Position numbers and translations under genes: made by a program. From positions 1 through 51,400 of the forward strand of contig BEHN01000021.1 of assembly GCA_002898535.1 (NCBI GenBank): 51,400 bases of DNA. The letters run 5' to 3'. Below, piece after piece: positions 47,022 through 51,400 of this stretch. Each line of letters starts with the position of its first letter. Positions within the stretch are counted from its first letter, which is position 1. Below the pieces are notes generated by a model, which saw only the letters and a list, made by a program, of their open reading frames with translations, made no database searches and was not told the DNA's origin. Source of the stretch: a bacterium HR11 (GTDB lineage Bacteria; Acidobacteriota; HRBIN11).

Positions 47022-47219
47022 GACTTCCCCAAAGGCAAGTCCCGGCCTACATAGCGCATGGCGCCATGCGCTTTGACCCTTCTGCCGAGGGTCCCAGACC
47101 CCAGGCCCCGGACCTCCCTCGGCCGTCAGGCTGTCTTCGCCGGGAGACGAGGACGGCCGGATCCCTCGACCAGGTCCAGACTCCACGGTCCATGGTCTAT
47201 GGTCCATGGTCCATGGTCT
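47022..47219. repeat. Gap with CCATGGTCTATGG word array
   Basis: 47187-47219 is a tandem of CCATGGTC/TATGGTC words (four copies) ending just at the fadN-like stop. The family also occurs inverted at 6.89, 8.51 and 8.60 kb. A TAGCGCATGGCGCCATGCGC dyad lies at about 47052-47071. No ORF. Confidence 0.6.
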
Positions 47220-50190: not shown

Positions 50191-50263
50191 GGGGACGCCG
50201 GCATGACGGCCGGCGTTCGGAAGAGGGGTAGCAATCTGCCTATCTCCCGACCTGCCCACCTGT
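50191..50263. repeat. ACGCCGGC hairpin copy and CTGCC word array
   Basis: GACGCCGGCATGACGGCCGG plus CGTTC (50194-50218), a near-perfect copy of the dispersed hairpin, followed by CAATCTGCCTATCTCCCGACC words (50232-50260, family B) up to the stop of the first Uma2 gene. Confidence 0.7.
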
Positions 50264-50832
50264 CAGTCAACGAATAGCTCCCCCACGTCCACGACCAAAT
50301 CGGGGACGGCCCGGCTCCGGACCGTCCCCGCCCCCCGGGCCCGCCCGTACAGCCGAAAGGCCCCGCCCTCCAAGACGTACACCTCCACCCCCGCCGTCTC
50401 GGGGTCCACGACCCAGTACTCCCCGACCCCCGCCCGCTCGTAGTCCGACCGCTTGCCCCCCCGGTCCGCCTCGGCCGTCGACGGCGACAGGACCTCGACG
50501 ACTACGTCCGGCGCCCCCTCGATGTGGGTCTCCCGAATCCGGTCCCCGTGCTCCCTCAGCACGACGACCAGGTCCGGTTGATACACCGTGTCCTCCGACA
50601 GCTTCACGTCCGTCGGAGATACGAAAACTTCACCGCCCCGAGTCTGGTCGAATACCTCAGCCCACTTTCGGGCTAAGCGCAATACAATGCGTTGATGCCG
50701 TATATTGGGTGCCGGACTCGGCATGGGAACCCCCCGGACGAGTTGCCAGTACCCCGGCTGGCCTTCCGCCCACCGGCGAAAGTCCTCATAACGCTCGAAA
50801 CGAATCCCCGGCTCGACGACCGCCTTCCCCAT
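50263..50832 (-). CDS. Uma2-family (DUF820) putative endonuclease, copy 1
   Basis: 189 residues. The family fold resembles PD-(D/E)XK nucleases: the start of the core SPTDVKLSEDTVYQPDLVVV supplies the catalytic-type Asp, and PDVVVEVLSPSTAEADRGGK supplies the ExxxxxxxxxxK-like part with YERAGVGEYWVVDPE after it. Function of Uma2 proteins is unresolved. ATG 50832 follows GGAG at 7 nt. Nearly all the gene is identical in DNA to the next copy, except a 74-bp internal block (50617-50690). Confidence 0.9.
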   Translation of the reverse strand: MGKAVVEPGIRFERYEDFRRWAEGQPGYWQLVRGVPMPSPAPNIRHQRIVLRLARKWAEVFDQTRGGEVFVSPTDVKLSEDTVYQPDLVVVLREHGDRIRETHIEGAPDVVVEVLSPSTAEADRGGKRSDYERAGVGEYWVVDPETAGVEVYVLEGGAFRLYGRARGAGTVRSRAVPDLVVDVGELFVD

Positions 50833-50874: not shown

Positions 50875-51400
50875 TCAGTCGGCGAATAGCTCCCCCACGT
50901 CCACGACCAAATCGGGGACGGCCCGGCTCCGGACCGTCCCCGCCCCCCGGGCCCGCCCGTACAGCCGAAAGGCCCCGCCCTCCAAGACGTACACCTCCAC
51001 CCCCGCCGTCTCGGGGTCCACGACCCAGTACTCCCCGACCCCCGCCCGCTCGTAGTCCGACCGCTTGCCCCCCCGGTCCGCCTCGGCCGTCGACGGCGAC
51101 AGGACCTCGACGACTACGTCCGGCGCCCCCTCGATGTGGGTCTCCCGAATCCGGTCCCCGTGCTCCCTCAGCACGACGACCAGGTCCGGTTGATACACCG
51201 TGTCCTCCGACAGCTTCACGTCCGTCGGGGCGAAGAACACATCCCCCAGCTTCTTGCCTATAACGAATTTTCGAAATAGGACGTACAACTCACCCAGAAC
51301 ACGTTGATGCCGTATATTGGGTGCCGGACTCGGCATGGGAACCCCCCGGACGAGTTGCCAGTACCCCGGCTGGCCTTCCGCCCACCGGCGAAAGTCCTCA
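50875..51400 (-). CDS. Uma2-family putative endonuclease, copy 2 (5' end outside the window)
   Basis: The frame continues to the window edge; the visible 174 codons include EDFRRWAEGQPGYWQLVRG, the same N-terminal sequence as copy 1, so the true start lies beyond 51400. The core motifs (QPDLVVV, VEVLSPSTAEADRGGK) are identical to copy 1. The only large difference is the segment reading RVLGELYVLFRKFVIGKKLG, where copy 1 has RIVLRLARKWAEVFDQTRGG. It is a tandem duplicate in the same orientation, offset by exactly 612 bp. Confidence 0.9.
   Translation of the reverse strand, partial: EDFRRWAEGQPGYWQLVRGVPMPSPAPNIRHQRVLGELYVLFRKFVIGKKLGDVFFAPTDVKLSEDTVYQPDLVVVLREHGDRIRETHIEGAPDVVVEVLSPSTAEADRGGKRSDYERAGVGEYWVVDPETAGVEVYVLEGGAFRLYGRARGAGTVRSRAVPDLVVDVGELFAD

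Follow-up and report, generated by a model that had tools for sequence, protein, structure and literature searches.

Uma2 nucleases have expanded greatly, yet little is understood of what they do; a selfish or toxin-like role was proposed between 2005 and 2009, and the family is now listed among candidate genes for phage defence. In HsdS target-recognition domains and in MHC genes, a specificity segment lies between conserved flanks that recombine. Passages of Feder and Bujnicki (2005; PMC551604) describe the massive expansion of Uma2/DUF820/COG4636, including tandem duplicates (four in a row in Crocosphaera), and assign putative catalytic roles to a His, a PD motif, a Glu and a migrated Lys; a passage of Makarova and colleagues (PMC2701414) lists Uma2 as a likely solo toxin. 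The recombination-promoting nucleases of the Rpn group are PD-(D/E)XK enzymes that occur in tandem arrays and carry a variable helix, which is the dimer interface that sets interaction specificity (PMC10327210).

The window, that is, the whole 51,400-nucleotide stretch of contig C21 analysed here, ends in two tandem Uma2 genes, copies A and B, whose parts are as follows.

50263-50832, minus strand: Uma2 copy A, 189 amino acids (PF05685 match of 124.9 bits, curated cut-off 27; AlphaFold model with pLDDT 93, closest among solved structures to 6okh at Z 27.9)
50875-51400, minus strand: Uma2 copy B, 174 amino acids visible, 5' end lost at the contig end (PF05685 match of 121.2 bits)
50617-50690, minus strand: copy A's variable block, coding for residues 48-72 in helix A and the next strand (mismatch positions; model helix 44-64, strand 67-71)
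51229-51302, minus strand: variable block of copy B (24 of 74 bases shared with block A; single occurrence in the genome)
50271-50616, minus strand: 346-bp downstream flank of copy A, homogenised and identical to 50883-51228, encoding D87, E113 and K127 (sequence comparison; invariant residues)
50883-51228, minus strand: homogenised downstream flank of copy B (sequence comparison)
50691-50788, minus strand: 98-bp upstream flank of copy A, homogenised and identical to 51303-51400, encoding H46-Q47 (sequence comparison)
51303-51400, minus strand: homogenised upstream flank of copy B, up to the contig end (sequence comparison; 99-base shared end)

Comparison of the two copies at an offset of 612 bp bears out the sharply bounded 74-bp block described in an earlier note on this DNA: within 50271-50788 every mismatch falls inside 50617-50689, and the copies are identical over 346 bp on one side of the block and over 98 bp on the other, where the window ends. 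The two blocks differ at 50 positions (32% identity), contain no indel and keep the reading frame. The lengths of the identical runs exclude chance as the source of this pattern.

By profile match and predicted structure, A and B are Uma2 nucleases of the PD-(D/E)XK type with an intact putative active site: the copy A model has the PD-(D/E)XK fold; among solved structures the Uma2-type protein 6okh is its nearest match, followed by 9y1l (Z 22.8), 3ot2 (Z 20.4) and 1wdj (Z 20.0); and H46, P86-D87, E113 and K127 are invariant in an alignment of 46 sequences. The PADLOC profile PDC-S03, a candidate defence protein, was also matched (E 1.9e-37). Modelled helix A starts at the conserved H46-Q47, and the block lies within this helix and the strand that follows (the earlier note had read it as about 25 residues of a helix next to the putative catalytic strand); D87, E113 and K127 are encoded outside it.

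The composition of the block is distinctive as well: its GC content is 0.53 in A and 0.47 in B, with a GC3 of 0.55, and that of the flanks is 0.69, with a GC3 of 0.88-0.90. A smaller drop occurs at the block of other converted Uma2 genes (p = 4e-5); such a drop is expected from GC-biased conversion of the flanks, the rival explanation being amino-acid composition. Beside copy A, a short intergenic sequence at 50165-50265 matches about 40 further sites in the genome (runs of the GGGCAGATGGGCAGGT type), and a similar run sits upstream of a third Uma2 copy on contig C9. Farther off, at 47126-47207, short repeated ATGGACC-type units lie close to the end of an open frame (translation HGPWSMVHGPWSL).

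A profile search gave 16 Uma2 matches in the genome. The earlier note had proposed looking for copies past 51400; the contig stops there (51400 of 51400), and a third copy, C, was found at 98777-99070 of contig C9, where that contig ends; in it a third, unrelated block stands between flanks that match those of A and B save for a few third-position differences just upstream. Alignment of the genome's Uma2 paralogues over the block, also proposed in that note, shows that copy C, a pair on contig C1 (185694 and 186294) and a set on contigs C6 and C32 all diverge at the same place. One further Uma2 gene (L023, L025; G000 C2:199494-199990) is split over two frames, probably through a frameshift in a pseudogene or through misassembly. 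Contig C21 stops exactly 99 bases into sequence shared with another copy, and C9, C32 and C6 end likewise at Uma2 copies, the signature of graph assembly from short reads at a k of about 99; the assembly therefore broke at these repeats. The window is probably part of a longer array, the order of which across the gap would be C9 - copy C - ... - B - A - C21. The linkage of A and B depends on repeat resolution; the existence of distinct blocks within shared flanks is independent of it, because ordinary reads can span the 74-bp block together with its edges.

We compared 223 Uma2 genes by profile-aligned codons. The least-identical window coincided with the block in 30 of the 35 within-genome pairs whose flanks are at least 75% identical (86%), and in 21% of distant family pairs. 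The same island occurs at the same place in Uma2 paralogues of Acidobacteriota, Chloroflexota, Planctomycetota and Bacillota. Identities of N flank, block and C flank are 1.00/0.30/0.99 for A and B, 1.00/0.45/0.97 in the complete Dehalococcoidia chromosome OY282385.1, 0.81/0.39/0.79 in the isolate Desulfocucumis palustris and 0.81/0.50/0.74 in the isolate Desulfofundulus thermosubterraneus; a four-copy array of period 611 on the 914-kb contig CATQHF010000001.1 has block identities of 0.44-0.67 and flank identities of 0.93-0.96. Other Desulfofundulus duplicates are alike over their full length. Some paralogue pairs elsewhere have similar blocks (L166, 0.88; L088/L045, 0.94), which very recent copies would show, but weaker selection would too. 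A search of plasmids for Uma2 returned 41 records, all below 60% identity, with no close relatives. In a Chloroflexi bin, a natural fusion joins two complete Uma2 domains in one frame (L134, 4340-5492), and its two helix A segments differ more than its strand-rich middle parts.

That the window pattern stems from faulty assembly, whether through chimerism or through mixing of strains, could be suspected from a contig end that falls inside a repeat of what looks like a short-read assembly. However, the same site recurs in the third copy and in other arrays of this genome and, beyond it, in isolates, in the 914-kb contig and in the complete chromosome, and we regard an artefact as extremely improbable.

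The histories of flanks and block were compared in triplets of a focal gene, a paralogue and an orthologue, by counting informative sites and applying a Fisher test. For the C1 genes of G000 with G002, sites supporting the paralogue and the orthologue number 33:1 in the C flank and 6:18 in the block (p = 5e-9); for G067 with G066, 36:10 in the flank and 2:25 in the block (p = 3e-9); for G001 with G000, 13:2 and 5:19 (p = 8e-5); and for copy b of G066, 38:41 and 1:35 (p = 4e-7). G001 and G002 are congeners, both Acidobacteriota bins, and in the C1 and G066/G067 sets the DNA adjoining the genes matches between genomes. Two other triplet sets tested gave no conflict between flank and block. In the first three sets, flank sites group by genome and block sites by orthologue, so that the flanks were homogenised after speciation and the blocks kept. 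Gene conversion of the flanks around a diverged block, as the earlier note had proposed, is therefore borne out in three sets and a fourth gene, and we think it very probable that concerted evolution sparing the block has acted in at least three species comparisons. As read from these alignments, homogenisation of the flanks is recurrent, and the block has been retained at one and the same location. No orthologue of the blocks of A, B or the C9 copy was detected, and what happened in the window array is therefore read from its sister arrays; a candidate orthologue on contig C5 of G002 is 87% identical to A and B in the flanks and 36-42% in the block, with no synteny seen.

Pooled over 30 paralogue pairs, the block has a pS of 0.60 and a pN of 0.39, and the flanks have a pS of 0.29 and a pN of 0.08; between A and B, pS is 0.84 in the block and 0.01 in the flanks. 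In the block, synonymous sites are thus close to saturation next to flanks that hardly differ, and point-mutational selection on fresh duplicates cannot account for such values. It might be supposed that fresh duplicates simply change where the protein tolerates it, with no recombination, since helix A is variable throughout the family; but relaxed constraint of this kind is at odds both with near-saturated synonymous sites beside nearly unchanged ones and with the conflicting genealogies of flank and block. Synonymous divergence and these genealogies refute it for recent pairs, and overall we hold it to be hardly credible.

Between genomes the block appears constrained. Pairs with similar blocks have a pS of 0.27 and a pN of 0.085 in the block and 0.24 and 0.046 in the flanks, a class that was picked by block similarity and is to that extent circular, so the contrast was redone by synteny: the median flank-minus-block gap is 0.06 in 26 syntenic pairs (cross-array pairs included) vs. 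0.28 in paralogues (Mann-Whitney p = 1e-4, p-values being guides only, as pairs from one genome or one array are non-independent). The closeness of block and flank values between genomes indicates, at the level of codon comparison, that purifying selection acts on the block in orthologues. Turnover of the block between species also occurs, as the syntenic orthologues L287 (G001 C344) and L288 (G000 C12) illustrate, with N flank, block and C flank identities of 0.90, 0.58 and 0.86.

Sharp, fixed boundaries and equal length would also be features of a block rewritten by a dedicated diversification system, by means of a retroelement or silent-cassette switching. The 95%-complete genome, however, has no match to the reverse transcriptase profile PF00078, no second copy of block A or B and no template repeat, so both the reverse transcriptase and the template repeat of a diversity-generating retroelement are missing here. 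A search for block donors by block similarity among the 223 genes found none; similar blocks with dissimilar flanks are practically absent among 22,301 gene pairs; and the block is mostly kept between orthologues. On these comparisons a mutational retroelement and cassette exchange are both disfavoured, and we consider a dedicated system very unlikely. The earlier note spoke of a cassette; with no sign of the block moving between subfamilies, "spared island" is the better description.

Variation within the block is itself patterned. Over 11 arrays, residue variability is 0.55 in the block and 0.07 outside it; L53, G67 and V69 hardly vary, and roughly half of the family has hydrophobic residues at several of the variable positions. 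The helical moments of variability and of family hydrophobicity point about 170 degrees apart, which suggests that the variable residues lie on the face of helix A opposite its conserved hydrophobic face and, judged by hydrophobicity, are exposed; such a face would look like a protein-protein or protein-DNA contact surface. The earlier note had called the block perhaps selected, and this variability, together with the recurrence of the site in many genomes and the constraint between orthologues, lends that suggestion indirect support; selection on the block is in our judgement likely.

A neutral account has to be weighed against selection: helix A may have diverged first, after which conversion would be blocked by missing homology and the island would persist unselected. 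The block is indeed short, is flanked by highly conserved stretches and belongs to the least conserved segments of the family (identity 0.24). Yet 30-40 columns at the C-terminus vary as much or more across the family (0.20) and are nonetheless homogenised in paralogues, where the C-terminal region reaches 0.92 and the block 0.63; the same site is spared across many genomes and phyla; recent copies begin identical, so that a difference must first arise; and variation is greatest on the face opposite the conserved hydrophobic one. We therefore rate such a heterology barrier as unlikely.

The explanation that we favour, and consider probable, is that tandem Uma2 paralogues evolve in concert while selection spares the helix A segment as a specificity surface. 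Gene conversion would keep the catalytic framework near-identical among tandem copies, probably helped by unequal crossing-over in the array; selection would remove conversion tracts that overwrite the helix A segment, leaving each copy its own version; and the exposed face of helix A would serve as the specificity surface, for self-assembly or for binding of a target or partner. We infer both the selective cause of the sparing and the role of the exposed face. Among candidate functions, self-assembly specificity, by which each copy would pair only with itself, is rated the most likely, at a little under an even chance; recognition of a target or regulator comes second and is possible, if rather less probable. 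Tentatively, the exposed face may be a private recognition code of Uma2 proteins across phyla, selected to be distinct for self-assembly or for each copy's own target. A single exposed helix that is private to each copy, in proteins that share the rest, would locate the function that separates the copies, and the identity of the remainder makes the role of the helix testable by a 25-residue swap.

With the described Uma2/DUF820/COG4636 proteins (PMC551604; PDB 6okh, 9y1l, 3ot2 and 1wdj), the window copies share the family, the fold and the active site (H46, D87, E113 and K127). The passages of PMC551604 reached through conversion and paralogue terms hold nothing on gene conversion or a spared helix, and the covered part of the literature on Uma2/DUF820/COG4636/PF05685 has no description of the spared-helix pattern. 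Like the Rpn proteins, Uma2 proteins are PD-(D/E)XK nucleases in tandem arrays with a variable helix, and partner specificity, tested in Rpn, would hold for Uma2 by analogy; Rpn is, however, another family, which varies the number of a four-residue repeat in its C-terminal domain, whereas the spared island of Uma2 sits inside the nuclease core. With HsdS and MHC genes, Uma2 shares homogenised flanks around a variable segment; it differs from them in that the segment, about 25 residues long, amounts to a single helix in the catalytic domain and is apparently not exchanged between subfamilies.
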